Assembly: GCA_002162095.1 (NCBI GenBank)
Contig: CP021424.1
Location: 2,356,001 to 2,420,000, forward strand
Origin: Armatimonadetes bacterium Uphvl-Ar2
GTDB taxonomy: Bacteria; Armatimonadota; Fimbriimonadia; Fimbriimonadales; Fimbriimonadaceae
Reading direction: 5' to 3'
DNA length: 64,000 nt
The notes beneath the pieces were generated by a model that worked only from the letters and a program-made list of their open reading frames with translations, searched no databases and was not told where the DNA came from. Shown here piece by piece: positions 10,400 through 29,815 of the stretch; within the stretch, counting starts at the first letter, position 1, and each line of letters opens with the position of its first letter. The translations under genes were made by a program, and so were the position numbers.

Positions 10400-12565
10400 C
10401 TAGTTTCGTAGGGGCTTGCCGGTATCCAGCATGTGACGAATACGGGCTTGGGTCAATCCATCTTGGATCAGGGCGACGAACTCTTGTCGTTCGCGGGTGA
10501 GCGCTTCGTCAAGGCTATTCGGCTTGGAGAACACATGACCAGCGGCGTCGGCGATCTTGCGATCGTGGCGCGTGGCTCCGGCCTTCTCCCATTCGTCGAA
10601 GGCGCGGTCCATCATCCCGGCCAGCGGGCCGACCACGGTCGTCCACTCCGGCCAGGGGCGCGGCGCCACCGTGAGGGCTGCTTGCTTGGCATCGTGCAGC
10701 CAACGATCGGGGTGGAAGGAAATCACATCGGTACGGCGCAGGACGCCTTGTCGCTGAGCCAGAACGGCATTGGTGGCCATCTCGCCCTTCGCCAGCACCT
10801 TGGCCGCTTCGACAAGGGACTTGGCGTTCTCTTGGTGGAACAGGCGCATCCGCACCGTGCCCGCCCCGCCGGGGATCAAGCCAACTTTGGCTTCGGGGTA
10901 GCCCAACTGGGCTTCGGCCGAGGCCACCACCACCGGGCAACCGAGCGCAAGTTCTAACCCGCCCCCAATGCCGTAACCGTGGATGGCCGCGACGCAGGGG
11001 TGCTGGCTTAGGCGATGGCAAGTCGCCTGGAACTTGGCCAGCGCCGCACCCACGCCCGCCCAGTCTTCCTCGTCAATCCGCGAACGGAAGAAGCTGAGGT
11101 CAAAACCGAAGGAGAAGACCTTGGCTTCGCTGGTCAGCACAAAGCGCTGGTCCGGGTGGCCGTCCAGGTAGGCGTTCAGGTCGTCCAGCAACTGGGGATT
11201 CACGGTGCCCATCTTGGTTCGCGTGCTGACTGCGTGCACGCCGTCGCCCAGGTCGCGGACATAAAGCGTGTCAAACGTCTGCAGGATGGGGAAGTCGGCG
11301 ATGGCCTGGTAGTTGGGTTCGGCTGGCTGCGGTACCCAGGTGCCCGCAAACGTCTTGACCGTCTTTTCTTTGTAGAACGGACCTTCAGGGATGCCAAGGC
11401 GCTCGGGTCCGATGGCGTCGATCATGGCGAACGGGCCTTGCTCCCATCCGAAGCCCCATTGCATCACACGGTCAAAATCGAGATAGCTGTAGCTGATTTC
11501 CGGGGCCAACTGGACTGCATAACGCAGGGCGGGCACCAGGTATTCGCGCAGGAACTCGCCGGCCGGATCCTTCAGTTCCAGACCCGCCGCGATGCGCTCA
11601 CCCAGCGGCTGGCGGGCGAGGGCATCCAGCGCCCCAAACTCGGGCTCGCGGCGCATGCGATAGGCGTGGGTTTGCAGGTCAAAGCTGAGGAACTCTTGTC
11701 CTTCTTTGCGGTAGTAGCCTTGGCCGGCCTTGTTGCCGATCCAACCCTTTTCCATGAGCACGGCCAGCGACTGCGGGACCGTCATGCTCTGGGCCATCAC
11801 ATCGTGGGGGCATCGCTCGCGCAGGTTATTGGCGATGTCCATCATGATGTCGAGGCCGACCAGGTCGTTCAGACGGAATGCCGCGCTACGCGGGCGACCC
11901 AGGAACGGGCCGCAAATGGCGTCGGCCTCTTCAATCGTCATGCCCAGGCGTTCCGTGACCTGAATCGTGGAGAACATGCTCCACATGCCGTAGCGGTTGG
12001 CGATGAATCCAGGGGTGTCCTTGGCGCGCACCACGCGGCGGGCGGCGTGGTCCTCCAAAAACTCAGTGATGCGCTCGACCACGGTGGGGTCGGTGTCGGA
12101 GGTCGGGATGAGTTCCAGCAGTTTGAGGTAGCGCGGGGGGTTGAAGAAGTGGGTGCCGAGGAACGAGCGGCGGAAGCGCTCGCTGCGCCCTTCTCGCAGC
12201 AGTTCGATCTCAAGGCCGCTGGTGTTGGTGGTGATGATGGTGGTTTCGCCAAGCGCTTGGTCAAGCTGTTCAAAGAGGGCGCGCTTGACGTCCAGCTTCT
12301 CCACCACGGCTTCGCACACCCAGTCGGCTTCCTGCGCCCAGTGCAAGTGCGTGTAGATGCCGCCCAGGCGCACATTCTCGGCGGTTTCCGGCACCATAAA
12401 GTGGGGCGGGCGGGCCTTAGTGGCGCGTTCCCAAGCGGCGCGGGCCGTCTGTTCGGTGGCGTCCAGAACGGTGACCTGAAACCCGAGATTGGCCATGTGG
12501 GCGGCGATACCGCTGCCCATGGTTCCCGCTCCGATAACACAGACATGAGCGCGTCGATTCCACAT
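10400..12565 (-). CDS. 3-hydroxyacyl-CoA dehydrogenase / enoyl-CoA hydratase fusion (FadN-type)
   Basis: This 721-residue protein begins with a Rossmann NAD site (VCVIGAGTMGSGIAAHMANLG), then the 3HCDH catalytic region (GTHFFNPPRYLKLLELIP) and two C-terminal 3HCDH domains. It ends with a crotonase domain (GYGIGGGLELALGCPVVVAS, LGYPEAKVGLIPGGAGT). The dehydrogenase-first order is that of FadN rather than E. coli FadB. It hydrates enoyl-CoA and oxidises the 3-hydroxyacyl-CoA in beta-oxidation. The ATG at 12565 is chosen because it stands directly before the Rossmann strand; the 69 codons upstream overlap the infC promoter and look non-coding. No thiolase is in the window. Confidence 0.92.
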   Translation of the reverse strand: MWNRRAHVCVIGAGTMGSGIAAHMANLGFQVTVLDATEQTARAAWERATKARPPHFMVPETAENVRLGGIYTHLHWAQEADWVCEAVVEKLDVKRALFEQLDQALGETTIITTNTSGLEIELLREGRSERFRRSFLGTHFFNPPRYLKLLELIPTSDTDPTVVERITEFLEDHAARRVVRAKDTPGFIANRYGMWSMFSTIQVTERLGMTIEEADAICGPFLGRPRSAAFRLNDLVGLDIMMDIANNLRERCPHDVMAQSMTVPQSLAVLMEKGWIGNKAGQGYYRKEGQEFLSFDLQTHAYRMRREPEFGALDALARQPLGERIAAGLELKDPAGEFLREYLVPALRYAVQLAPEISYSYLDFDRVMQWGFGWEQGPFAMIDAIGPERLGIPEGPFYKEKTVKTFAGTWVPQPAEPNYQAIADFPILQTFDTLYVRDLGDGVHAVSTRTKMGTVNPQLLDDLNAYLDGHPDQRFVLTSEAKVFSFGFDLSFFRSRIDEEDWAGVGAALAKFQATCHRLSQHPCVAAIHGYGIGGGLELALGCPVVVASAEAQLGYPEAKVGLIPGGAGTVRMRLFHQENAKSLVEAAKVLAKGEMATNAVLAQRQGVLRRTDVISFHPDRWLHDAKQAALTVAPRPWPEWTTVVGPLAGMMDRAFDEWEKAGATRHDRKIADAAGHVFSKPNSLDEALTRERQEFVALIQDGLTQARIRHMLDTGKPLRN

Positions 12566-12611
12566 GTGACTAGGGAGGTTACCGCCCTCCTTTCCTTTCT
12601 TGGTGTTGCCG

Positions 12612-12621
12612 ATAGTAGAAT
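12612..12621. promoter_or_regulatory. Back-to-back -10 elements between the FadN-like gene and infC
   Basis: TAGAAT (12616-12621) reads toward infC and TACTAT (plus-strand positions 12612-12617) reads toward the FadN-like gene, overlapping by two bases. The -35 elements are not obvious, so this rests on the hexamers alone. Confidence 0.4.
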
Positions 12622-12673
12622 GGAACCGAATGACGCATACCATTTCTTGCAGTGAGGTACGTCCATAGGCCGC

Positions 12674-13297
12674 ATGGGCCGACGTCCGGTCCGGCGCGAG
12701 CCGCTCCCGGATATCAACGAGAGGCTCTTTCGGTTGAAAGAGGTGCGGGTCATCGGGTCCGATGGCGCGCAACTAGGAGTCCTGGACACCCGCGACGCGG
12801 TGAACCGGGCCCAAGGTGAGGGACTTGACCTCGTTTTGGTGGCTCCCAATGCCGATCCGCCGGTGTGTCGCATCGTGGATTACGGCAAGTACAAGTACGA
12901 GCTCGCCAAGCGGACAAAGGACAACAAGCCTAAGAAGCAAGAAGTCAAGGGTATAAAAATAAGCCCGGTGATTGCGGACCACGACCTGATGGTGGCGGTT
13001 CGCTCGACGATCAAGTTCCTTGAAGAAGGCCACAAGGTGCGCGTGGTTTGCCGCTTCCGCAAGAAGCAGCTCACGCACCCCGAGGTTGGAAAGGCGCGCT
13101 TATTGAAGCTCATTGAGCGCGTGGAGGAAGTTGGGAAGCCAGACCGGGAACCCGTGATGAGCGGAATGGAAATGGTCGTGGTGATTAATCCCAAGATCAT
13201 AGGAAGCAAGAAGAATGCCCAAGGCAAAACTGAAGACAAGCAAGACAGCAGCGAAGCGGTTCAAGATCTCGGGGACGGGCAAGATCATTCGGCGTAA
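12674..13297 (+). CDS. infC: Translation initiation factor IF-3
   Basis: This 207-residue protein has both IF-3 domains: an N-terminal part with EVRVIGSDGAQLGVLDTRDAV and CRIVDYGKYKYE, a lysine-rich linker, and a C-terminal domain with KISPVIADHDL and VRVVCRFRKKQL. IF-3 binds the 30S subunit and checks the start codon, which is notable here given the many apparently leaderless genes. It heads the conserved infC-rpmI-rplT operon. The C-terminal domain normally ends near MVVVINPK. Here about 28 further residues overlap rpmI in another frame for 83 nt, an odd tail that may reflect a lost stop codon. A stop is present in the neighbouring frame at about 13201. Confidence 0.96.
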   Translation: MGRRPVRREPLPDINERLFRLKEVRVIGSDGAQLGVLDTRDAVNRAQGEGLDLVLVAPNADPPVCRIVDYGKYKYELAKRTKDNKPKKQEVKGIKISPVIADHDLMVAVRSTIKFLEEGHKVRVVCRFRKKQLTHPEVGKARLLKLIERVEEVGKPDREPVMSGMEMVVVINPKIIGSKKNAQGKTEDKQDSSEAVQDLGDGQDHSA

Positions 13298-13935: not shown

Positions 13936-14898
13936 TTAGAAGACGCCGTTGGGGAAGGCGCCGCCGCGCTCGTATTCCGGCAACACCATGTGGCGGATGG
14001 CCTTGAGGTGGGTGGCGACAAAGTCCGCGCCGGCTTGGAGGCACGGTTGGGGATTCTCGGTGACGGCCCGGCCGCCCACGCCAATCGCAAACTGCTTTTC
14101 GGCTCCCCGGCTGTCATCCAGCCGCGCCACTAGTTCAATGCAATCGGGAAGAGACTCGGCGGTGGCACAGCTCACCATCACCATCTCCGGGGAGTGCTCC
14201 AGCGCGGCCTTCACAAAGGCCTCGGTGGGCACGTTTGCGCCCAGGTACATCACGCGCCAGCCGGCCATGCGCATCACGTCGGCCACCATGCGCGCGCCAA
14301 TGGAGTGCCAGTTGCCCGCACAGCAGCCCACCAGGGCGGTATTGGGGCTGGACGGAGCCGGGACAGCGGAGAAGTGCGAGACGCGCGCCATCAAGCGCTC
14401 GACGATGGCACTGGCCAGGTGCTCTTGGCCTTCGTCAATAGCTTCTACCATCCACCACTCGCCGACCATACCCATGGACTCGGCGAAAAGCTGTTCGTAA
14501 ATCGTTTCGGGTTCTTCTTGCACCCGCAGGAGGGAATCGACAATCTGGGTGCACTCAGCCTCGTTGGCAGCGCAGGCCGCGCGGGCAAATTTCTTCACCA
14601 GGTTGCGGTCTAGCACCACTTCCGGCTCGTCCGCCAGCTCTTGGGGGCTCAGAAGGTTAGTGAGTGCCGTTTCCACGTCCGGCCCGGCCAGGCTGTAATA
14701 CACCTGCCGCCCGACCTTATGCGAACGAATGATGCCCTTCGAGCGGAGCTTGGCCAAGTGGTTGCTCACATTGGGCTGCTTGAGGCCACTGGCTTGCACG
14801 AGTTCGGTGACGTTGCGAGGGCCACTTTTGAGTTCGGCCAGGATCACGCGCTTGGAGACCTCGCTGATCTCGCGCAACAAAAGCATGACGATGTCCAT
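13936..14898 (-). CDS. ArsR-type transcription factor fused to a CarH-like cobalamin-binding module
   Basis: This 320-residue protein combines an ArsR winged helix (about 8-75; recognition helix QPNVSNHLAKLRSKG) with a B12 cap domain (about 95-175) and a cobalamin-binding Rossmann domain (about 183-305). The cap carries W149-x9-E159-H160, the Wx9EH signature of CarH photoreceptors, where these residues shield the adenosyl group. The Rossmann domain has NWHSIG with His198 where CarH has ExHxxG, the lower cobalt ligand. Known CarH/LitR proteins use a MerR DNA-binding domain, so an ArsR head is unusual. By inference it represses DNA in the dark with adenosylcobalamin and releases it in light, or senses B12. 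A 12-bp palindrome sits in its own promoter. Confidence 0.9.
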   Translation of the reverse strand: MDIVMLLLREISEVSKRVILAELKSGPRNVTELVQASGLKQPNVSNHLAKLRSKGIIRSHKVGRQVYYSLAGPDVETALTNLLSPQELADEPEVVLDRNLVKKFARAACAANEAECTQIVDSLLRVQEEPETIYEQLFAESMGMVGEWWMVEAIDEGQEHLASAIVERLMARVSHFSAVPAPSSPNTALVGCCAGNWHSIGARMVADVMRMAGWRVMYLGANVPTEAFVKAALEHSPEMVMVSCATAESLPDCIELVARLDDSRGAEKQFAIGVGGRAVTENPQPCLQAGADFVATHLKAIRHMVLPEYERGGAFPNGVF

Positions 14899-14915
14899 GA
14901 CGTGACCTGAGTGAT

Positions 14916-14933
14916 ATTTTACTGATATATCAG
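14916..14933 (-). promoter_or_regulatory. Promoter and palindromic operator candidate of the ArsR-cobalamin gene
   Basis: On the minus strand the perfect 12-bp palindrome CTGATATATCAG (14922-14933) is directly followed by the -10-like TAAAAT (14916-14921), and the gene starts 17 nt later. ArsR-family operators are AT-rich inverted repeats overlapping promoters, so this is a good autoregulation candidate. Confidence 0.6.
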
Positions 14934-15799: not shown

Positions 15800-16822
15800 C
15801 TACGCTAAGCGAGGGGGAAGATATCCGGCCACGATGATCGCTTGGGTTGGCTTATGAATGAGATAAGCAAACGTACCAGGGCCGGTGCCGGCCTTCCAGT
15901 TTCCTACGACCACACTCTTTAATCCATCCACCGTGCTATGGCGATTCAACTCTTGATTGATTCCCCGGAAATCATTGTCTTCTAACAGATAACCCCAACC
16001 GATAGTGTTGGCGTTGGAGGCAAGGTCAAAGTCCAACGTTTGCGTGGGGGGCCAGGGCACGGCGTACGTTTGGTCCTGGGCTTCAAGCGTGGGGAGCGGA
16101 CCCGAGAGCGGCTGGCGAGAGAACACCCACTGGAGATCCGTGCCGCCATCGGCTACGCCAAACTCCGTATCCTTGGTAGAATGCGCGTCTCCGACAGTCA
16201 CTTGGGCGAGAGCGGCGGCAATGATGGCATCTTGGGCTCCCAGGCTGGCAAACGGGCTGGGGAAGGCGGTGTCTCGGGTCTGCGCCCACCGTTCCAGTTC
16301 CCTTCGCGCACCCACTCGCGCACTGCCCAGCCGGTACACATCCACCTCCAGGTACTTGGCCATCTCGTTGACGTAGCCACTCACGGGGGTGACGGGCCAC
16401 ACCATCCAGATGCCGGCTCCGTGCTGGTAGTCCGGAATCTGGTTGAGGTCCGCGAGGCGACGCCGGAGAACCACGTGGTACGTCAGATCGTCTTCGGCCG
16501 GGATTTGGAGCGTCTCGGAGAGACGCTTGTACGTTTCCCCATCGGAAGCTCGAAGCAAGGCTCCCAACACCCGTAGGAGCGAGTCGTGGGCCAAGAAAAT
16601 CGGCTTAGGCTCTTTCTGCGCTTTCACGAGCGTGGCCAAGGTTTCCTGGGCCAACCGGTTTTGGGCGTTGACAAAGGTGCGTTCGGCCTCCCGGGCCACC
16701 TTGATTTCAGCCTCCGAGAAGGCACTTTCCGTAAGGCGAGGCGCGGTGTTGATGGGCGATGTGCAGGCCGCGGCCAACCCCAACGCCACCAATCCCAGCG
16801 GAATCAGCCTAAGCCGGTTCAC
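15800..16822 (-). CDS. Serpin-like lipoprotein
   Basis: This 340-residue protein, starting at GTG 16822, has a lipoprotein signal peptide (lipobox LAAAC). The body resembles a shortened, divergent serpin: a helix with LAHDSLLRVLGALLRASDGE (serpins have a related helix before the repeating GA region), a middle region GAGIWMVWPVTPV...YLEVDVYRL, and the closing strand FAYLIHKPTQAIIVAGYLPP, like the serpin ending FLFLI..TGAILFMGR. Whether a reactive loop exists is unclear; if active it would inhibit proteases at the cell surface. It overlaps livG by 14 bp, has GAGG at good spacing, and is the last gene of the liv operon, in the position often held by livF. Confidence 0.55.
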   Translation of the reverse strand: MNRLRLIPLGLVALGLAAACTSPINTAPRLTESAFSEAEIKVAREAERTFVNAQNRLAQETLATLVKAQKEPKPIFLAHDSLLRVLGALLRASDGETYKRLSETLQIPAEDDLTYHVVLRRRLADLNQIPDYQHGAGIWMVWPVTPVSGYVNEMAKYLEVDVYRLGSARVGARRELERWAQTRDTAFPSPFASLGAQDAIIAAALAQVTVGDAHSTKDTEFGVADGGTDLQWVFSRQPLSGPLPTLEAQDQTYAVPWPPTQTLDFDLASNANTIGWGYLLEDNDFRGINQELNRHSTVDGLKSVVVGNWKAGTGPGTFAYLIHKPTQAIIVAGYLPPRLA

Positions 16823-17585
16823 CCAAATACGCCTCAATGACCTTTGGGTTGTTACGAATGGCATCGGGCGGTCCTTGGGCGATCTCTTCGCCGTGGTCCA
16901 GCACCACAATTCGCTCGCAAAGCCCCATAACAAAGCGCATGTCGTGTTCAATCACCAGCACCGTCTTGTTGAGTTCGTCTCGGATCCGGCGCACGGTGTA
17001 GAGCAGTTCTTCCTTTTCTTGCGGGTTCATCCCGGCGGCGGGTTCGTCCAACAGGATGAGCTCCGGGTCGGTGGCGAGGGCGCGGGCGATCTCGAGCCGG
17101 CGCTGCTTGCCGTAGCTCATGTCGGCACTACGATGGTTGGCGTAGTCCGCCAGGTTCACCAACTCAAGCAAGTGCATGGAGCGCTCCTGCAGAGCCTTCG
17201 TTTCGGCGACGGAGTTCGGGGCGAGCAACAGGGCTCCCACCAGCGGCACGCGATGGCGCAGGTGCGCCCCTATCATCACGTTCTCGACACTGCTCAGCGC
17301 GCTGAAGAGGCGGATGTTCTGGAAGGTACGGCAGATCCCACGCGTGGCGATCTTGTTCGGGGCCAGGCCGCCAATGGGCTGACCTTGGAAGTAGATCTCC
17401 CCGCTGGTCGGCTTGTAGACCCCGGTAATGAGGTTAAAGCACGTGGTCTTCCCGGCGCCGTTGGGGCCGATGAGGCCGAAGATGTCGCCGCGATTGAGTT
17501 CAAAGGAGACCTTGTTAACAGCAGTGAGGCCGCCGAACTTGATCGTCGCTTCGTCGAGCCGCAGGATCGGTTGCGCTTCGCTCAC
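16809..17585 (-). CDS. livG: Branched-chain amino-acid ABC transporter, ATP-binding protein
   Basis: This 258-residue ATPase has Walker A (GPNGAGKT), the Q-loop (TFQNIRLF), an ABC signature variant (MSYGKQRRLEIARAL), Walker B with glutamate (LILLDEPAAGMNPQE) and the switch histidine (VIEHDM). The length and the YKPTSGEIYFQGQPI region fit LivG. It energises uptake of branched-chain amino acids or related substrates. The start is placed at GTG 17585 because it has a strong AGGAGGT site and overlaps the livM stop as GTGA. The signature reads MSYGKQ instead of the usual LSYGQQ. No LivF follows, so LivG may act as a homodimer or use a LivF encoded elsewhere. Confidence 0.95.
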   Translation of the reverse strand: MSEAQPILRLDEATIKFGGLTAVNKVSFELNRGDIFGLIGPNGAGKTTCFNLITGVYKPTSGEIYFQGQPIGGLAPNKIATRGICRTFQNIRLFSALSSVENVMIGAHLRHRVPLVGALLLAPNSVAETKALQERSMHLLELVNLADYANHRSADMSYGKQRRLEIARALATDPELILLDEPAAGMNPQEKEELLYTVRRIRDELNKTVLVIEHDMRFVMGLCERIVVLDHGEEIAQGPPDAIRNNPKVIEAYLGEPA

Positions 17586-29764: not shown

Positions 29765-29815
29765 ATTGAGTTAGGACAAATATACCTGGGCTACTTACCT
29801 GATATTTCAGCTCAC

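Follow-up and report, generated by a model that had tools for sequence, protein, structure and literature searches.

The B12-dependent photoreceptor repressors that we found described carry a MerR-type DNA-binding head and mostly control carotenoid and light-damage functions. The CarH proteins (LitR class I) are one-component regulators in which this N-terminal head is joined to a module of a B12 cap and a Rossmann domain, marked by a Wx9EH motif and a histidine that serves as the lower ligand of cobalt; their genes have carotenoid and photolyase genes as neighbours. Comparable modules are found in the photocobilins (SasPcob, AbDPcob), which contain a biliverdin-binding domain and are either stand-alone proteins or have a diguanylate cyclase output, and in CtMerR of Chloracidobacterium thermophilum, which has a MerR-type head and a light-responsive module. 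The signature of light-responsive cobalamin domains has been given as GxxW, EH, GxxH and GxxxP (SignatureFinder; PMC11796333).

Here we analyse a regulator encoded in a 64,000-nucleotide stretch of the genome of Armatimonadetes bacterium Uphvl-Ar2, referred to as the window. The regulator shares with CarH the N-terminal head, the one-component design, and the cap and Rossmann module with Wx9EH and the ligand histidine at equivalent positions. Its head, however, is of the ArsR type and its B12 module lies in a separate clade; the CarH residue H132 and the CarH pair R176/D201 are not kept, the CarH tryptophan is not conserved in the ArsR-headed family, and the ancestral neighbour of that family is an acyl-CoA dehydrogenase gene. 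The photocobilins are the nearest solved relatives of the module by both sequence and fold, and many share with it a WH before the cobalt ligand and an LGA in the next loop, but the regulator contains no biliverdin-binding domain, and it has a DNA-binding head where the photocobilins stand alone or have a diguanylate cyclase output. Like CtMerR, it has no H132 equivalent. With the ArsR/SmtB metalloregulators it has in common a winged-helix head, a promoter palindrome with AT-rich half-sites and a divergent neighbour gene, and it differs from them in having none of the known metal-site residues and in carrying a large B12 module alongside its head.

Domain structure of the regulator

The gene occupies positions 13936–14898 on the reverse strand of the window, as do all features of the protein given below, and encodes 320 amino acids from an ATG start, based on the open reading frame call, domain profiles and a structural model. 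These coordinates, strand and length agree with the preliminary description of the locus. Three Pfam families matched the protein above their gathering cut-offs: ArsR HTH_5 (PF01022) at residues 18–58 (4.8e-9), the B12-binding_2 cap (PF02607) at residues 102–172 (2.8e-9; positions 14383–14595), and B12-binding (PF02310) at residues 188–294 (7.6e-22; positions 14017–14337), the last being the Rossmann domain. Cap and Rossmann regions, for which a match to a non-B12 family had been considered, thus both fall in B12 families. The NCBIfam ArsR/SmtB profile NF033788 scored 67.2 bits (cut-off 55) on residues 7–78 (positions 14665–14880), which bears out the winged helix formerly placed at residues 8–75, and no MerR profile of Pfam or NCBIfam matched the regulator. 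An AlphaFold2 model built on the family alignment gave a pLDDT of 93 and a pTM of 0.74, with the four helices of the cap spanning residues 98–176. By profiles and model, the 320 residues hold ArsR and B12 domains only, with no biliverdin-binding (photoglobin) domain. Sequence and model show a winged-helix head of the ArsR type and a CarH/photocobilin-type module in one chain, the make-up of a one-component transcription regulator.

Within the recognition helix KQPNVSNHL (residues 40–48; positions 14755–14781), Q41, P42, N43, S45, N46, H47 and L48 were invariant in 39 of 39 sequences, and this invariance predicts a shared DNA site. In residues 1–90, cysteine is absent from the regulator and from 25 of 38 members of the family, and the alpha3 and alpha5 regions showed no Cys/His metal-site pair conserved across the family. 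Classic metal sensing is therefore unlikely.

Residues of the B12 pocket

Alignment with Thermus thermophilus CarH (locus L083) paired Trp149 (positions 14452–14454), Glu159-His160 (14419–14424) and His198 (14305–14307) with CarH Trp131, Glu141-His142 and His177, so that the cap motif W149-x9-E159-H160 and the Rossmann histidine of the preliminary description both align column by column with CarH; His198 is the predicted lower cobalt ligand. CarH H132 corresponds to Met150, and R176/D201 correspond to W197/N222. Because these positions are altered, assembly must differ in detail from that of CarH. Lack of an H132 equivalent is no strong objection to light sensing, since CtMerR and the photocobilins also lack it and still respond to light (PMC11796333).

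We compared the pocket residues of 46 ArsR-headed, 11 MerR-type, 6 photocobilin-type and 7 corrinoid/MetH modules. The EH pair was kept in 45 and the cobalt histidine in 44 of the 46 ArsR-headed modules, and both were present in all MerR-type and photocobilin-type modules. Among the corrinoid/MetH modules EH was found in none and phenylalanine stood at the tryptophan position in all 7, whereas the regulator has both W and EH. Retention of EH sets the family apart from methyl-transfer corrinoid proteins, and, judged by conservation in the alignment, the pocket motif residues of the regulator are not chance.

A different pattern was observed for the Trp149 column, which holds tyrosine in 30 of the 46 ArsR-headed modules, tryptophan in 11 (the regulator included) and phenylalanine in 2, compared to strictly tryptophan in the MerR (11/11) and photocobilin-type (6/6) modules sampled. 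The nearest relatives of the regulator also carry tryptophan. As marks of the family, then, EH and the cobalt histidine stand, but the tryptophan of Wx9EH does not. The SignatureFinder signature is complete in the regulator (G146/W149, E159/H160, G195/H198, G220/P224) and in only 10 of the 46 family members, because the tryptophan column is mostly tyrosine. When the regulator was compared to the classic B12 motif D/ExHx2G/Px41SxT/Vx22-27GG, H198, G201, the x41 spacing, S243 and G275-G276 matched; N196 in place of D/E, A245 (SxA instead of SxT/V) and a last gap of 29 residues deviated. The corresponding tryptophan of CtMerR, as seen in its crystal structure, extends across from the neighbouring monomer (PMC11796333), and CarA, which is without it, is B12-independent (PMC9304148). 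For this reason the presence of tyrosine in most relatives calls for real caution over light gating in the family, though less so for the tryptophan-bearing regulator itself.

Two ArsR-B12 relatives have altered pockets, L030:5983-6936 (EH to YR, cobalt His to Cys) and L127:736-1866 (cobalt His to Asn). By analogy with CarA and CarH, these are likely to be B12-independent derivatives.

Fold and phylogeny of the B12 module

Residues 94–316 of the model were compared to solved structures using Foldseek and VIA-align. The match to the photocobilin SasPcob had a Z-score of 26.5 (rmsd 1.9 over 210 residues), followed by AbDPcob (25.3), CtMerR (24.4), MetH 1bmt (23.0) and CarH (20.5). It is the EH residues, and not the fold by itself, that distinguish the light sensors from MetH. 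The best solved relatives by sequence were the photocobilins 8j2w/8j2x (3e-21) and next CtMerR 8jbs, CarH being weaker. Both measures, sequence and fold, place the module closest to those of the photocobilin type.

In a tree of 77 modules, 44 typical ArsR modules formed one clade with SH-aLRT support of 100 and the MerR-CarH modules formed a separate clade with support of 95. Grouping of the ArsR clade with photocobilin-type modules was weak (84). Constrained tree tests were compatible both with a single ArsR clade (p-AU 0.79) and with ArsR and MerR modules as sisters (p-AU 0.67). On this phylogeny the ArsR-headed family falls outside the sampled MerR-CarH clade. Sequence, model and conservation support the first description of the protein in that an ArsR head is combined with a B12 module of the CarH/photocobilin type; 'ArsR-headed CarH' is too narrow a name for a clade of its own outside the sampled MerR-CarH proteins.

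MerR-type proteins with B12 modules also occur in the regulator's order, and one gene in genome G046 (L060:1177-2088) encodes a B12 module with Wx9EH, a histidine after a tryptophan, and a C-terminal XRE-type (HTH_3) domain. The sensor module has therefore combined with no fewer than three DNA-binding folds (ArsR, MerR and XRE) within one phylum. Four further Armatimonadota proteins of about 400 amino acids (L123, L125, L126, L142), in which an unannotated N-terminal region precedes a B12 module of the Wx9EH type, resemble photocobilins whose bilin-type domain comes first.

Distribution of the ArsR-headed family

Relatives were identified by a short-peptide scan of 84,980 species genomes and a relative search. 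About three dozen near-complete relatives share the three-part layout, all assigned to Armatimonadota. Full-length profile matches numbered 54 in 291 Armatimonadota genomes, mainly from the regulator's own family and two other families. No full-length match at 1e-40 was found in a sample of 396 Actinomycetota genomes, and none of 72,556 plasmids carried a match covering 80% of the query. The survey of ArsR plus B12 architectures suggested in the preliminary description, run over Armatimonadota, the Actinomycetota sample and plasmids, thus recovered a conserved fusion family. No description of a regulator with an ArsR head and a B12 module was found in the open-access literature searched. The SignatureFinder survey mentions fused HTH outputs in general terms, and ArsR-B12 fusions may already be present, unnamed, in its network. 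The domain combination is real, conserved and undescribed in the literature searched, and it belongs to a known sensor class.

One locus, L024 (JADZEW010000008.1), is titled Methanoregulaceae archaeon. It is of the Fimbriimonadaceae type and the same locus as that of genome G012, and is probably a mislabelled bacterial bin.

Association with genes of fatty-acid oxidation

Counted per genome, an acyl-CoA dehydrogenase gene lies divergent from the regulator gene in 29 of 36 Fimbriimonadaceae genomes, at a distance of approximately 100–270 bp in 28 of the 29 and of 1 kb in the other. The divergent gene is absent from the eight members examined outside Fimbriimonadaceae. Uphvl-Ar2 and its sister species G001 have also lost it from the regulator locus, while the two genes still stand together in G002, a member of the same genus. 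The Uphvl-Ar2 genome has a 73% identical acyl-CoA dehydrogenase gene at 151 kb, and no ATATCA site was found in the stretch read upstream of this relocated gene. Maintenance of the pair over such divergence is good evidence for a functional link of the regulator and the acyl-CoA dehydrogenase.

On the other side of the regulator, many relatives keep genes for 3-hydroxyacyl-CoA dehydrogenase/enoyl-CoA hydratase and electron-transfer flavoprotein. The first of these (FadB/FadN-like), annotated by way of a homologue, lies in the window at positions 10400–12772 on the reverse strand, the listed start of its open reading frame being mechanical. The conserved neighbour clusters showed no photolyase or carotenoid gene.

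In many relatives the gene after that for acyl-CoA dehydrogenase encodes a conserved protein of about 320 amino acids (L014:3722-4675) that has no Pfam or NCBIfam match; in the Uphvl-Ar2 genome this gene has moved along with that of the dehydrogenase (L080). Near the regulator, positions 15800–16951 of the window encode what we take, from the translation, to be a serpin-like protein.

A candidate operator

The palindrome CTGATATATCAG, noted in the preliminary description at positions 14922–14933, is present there, closely upstream of the start codon (14898). The 2.63-Mb genome contains its 10-bp core TGATATATCA at this one place, and the core is also kept in G001. An additional TGATAT half-site lies at 14912–14917, 11 bp from the half-site at 14923–14928, in a block kept in G001. 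From its position in the regulator's own promoter region, the palindrome looks autoregulatory.

The half-site was evaluated across the family. In 35 upstream regions ATATCA/TGATAT had 21 copies, ranking first of the 60 hexamers obtained by permuting its letters (mean 3.5, next 11), and ATATCA occurred at 0.60 per 150 bp upstream of family members, compared to 0.07 for neighbouring genes and 0.13 for GC-matched upstream regions. As a shared upstream motif the ATATCA half-site is well supported by these counts. TATCA-N8-TGATA and TGATATATCA each exceeded controls, and no one arrangement fits all relatives. A direct repeat of 11 bp, matching the CarH operator in its period, exists at the regulator and in G001; it is not enriched across the family. 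No sigma-70 promoter match was found near the palindrome, and neither a terminator nor an Rfam family, the cobalamin riboswitch included, was found near the gene.

A regulon defined by the palindrome was considered and set aside; near matches to CTGATATATCAG numbered 27 versus 12 for the control, and the two best others lie in or beside an RHS-like coding sequence and in the intergenic gap at position 29799 of the window. A second TGATATATCA in G001 falls within an unrelated coding gene.

Cofactor supply

The genome encodes a PduO-type adenosyltransferase (7e-57) and NrdJ, a ribonucleotide reductase dependent on adenosylcobalamin (AdoCbl), so the cell probably contains AdoCbl. Other genes with a B12-binding domain are limited to a piece of MetH and a radical SAM protein of the B12 type. 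A phytoene synthase is also encoded; carotenoids in the cell are possible and would be in keeping with exposure to light.

Discussion

We consider it somewhat probable that the regulator is an AdoCbl-binding, light-released ArsR-type repressor of its own gene and, ancestrally, of acyl-CoA dehydrogenase and fatty-acid oxidation; here we infer the response to light and the binding of cobalamin and DNA. In the dark, the module would bind AdoCbl in the base-off state: His198 would sit beneath the cobalt, and Trp149, Glu159 and His160 would cap the adenosyl group. This would promote assembly, allowing the ArsR heads to bind ATATCA-type half-sites and repress. On the CarH model, green or blue light would cut the Co-C bond, loosen the assembly and lift repression. 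The predicted targets are the regulator's own promoter, with its single TGATATATCA palindrome, and ancestrally the divergent acyl-CoA dehydrogenase gene, an arrangement that would tie fatty-acid oxidation to light and/or AdoCbl supply. With the dehydrogenase relocated in the Uphvl-Ar2 genome, autoregulation alone would be visible there.

The next most likely reading, although rather unlikely in our judgement, is that the module serves as a gauge of coenzyme B12 in the dark, reporting AdoCbl supply with light having no physiological role, and that tyrosine marks a lost or weakened light switch. The prevalence of that tyrosine in a family whose MerR and photocobilin-type counterparts strictly have tryptophan is in keeping with such a gauge, as are the AdoCbl-using NrdJ and the PduO that the genome encodes and conserved neighbour clusters free of photolyase and carotenoid genes. 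However, the regulator and its nearest relatives keep the tryptophan, the EH located at the adenosyl group is retained, AdoCbl is chemically photolabile, and CtMerR and photocobilins respond to light with no histidine at the H132 position. We find it improbable that the protein senses methylcobalamin, another corrinoid or redox state instead of AdoCbl; the fold match to MetH is about equal to that of CarH, and several motif positions are unlike both, but the adenosyl-capping EH, nearly invariant here, is absent from the corrinoid/MetH set.

A B12-independent, CarA-like regulator, its module used for assembly or protein contacts only, is slightly more improbable again: the pocket losses in L030 and L127 fit this reading, yet these account for 2 of 46 modules, and elsewhere in the family the cobalt ligand and EH hardly vary. 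The match to the ArsR/SmtB profile would also suit an ordinary repressor that senses metals and carries its B12 domain as an accessory, but the head is without cysteine in the regulator and in most members and has no conserved alpha3/alpha5 pair, making this very improbable.

We also put forward, tentatively and as the less likely outcome, a broader proposal. The ArsR-headed proteins may be a lineage of AdoCbl photoreceptors that is distinct from CarH and has fatty-acid oxidation in Armatimonadota under its control, in which the natural Trp/Tyr polymorphism at the position capping the adenosyl group tunes or abolishes light sensitivity and some members act as dark B12 gauges. The conserved ArsR-headed family presents the B12 sensor module as a movable part compatible with another kind of DNA-binding fold. 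Through its link with acyl-CoA dehydrogenase, the family suggests that lipid oxidation is under B12 or light control, which is unexpected from the CarH literature consulted. Variation between tryptophan and tyrosine within one family provides a natural test of the role of this residue in photoswitching, and ArsR heads with a short palindrome could provide new green-light gene switches.

Photocobilin-type genes were also observed on Streptomyces plasmids (L118, L122), in a row encoding a PP2C phosphatase, the B12 protein and a STAS-domain protein. This gene order suggests a light-controlled partner switch.
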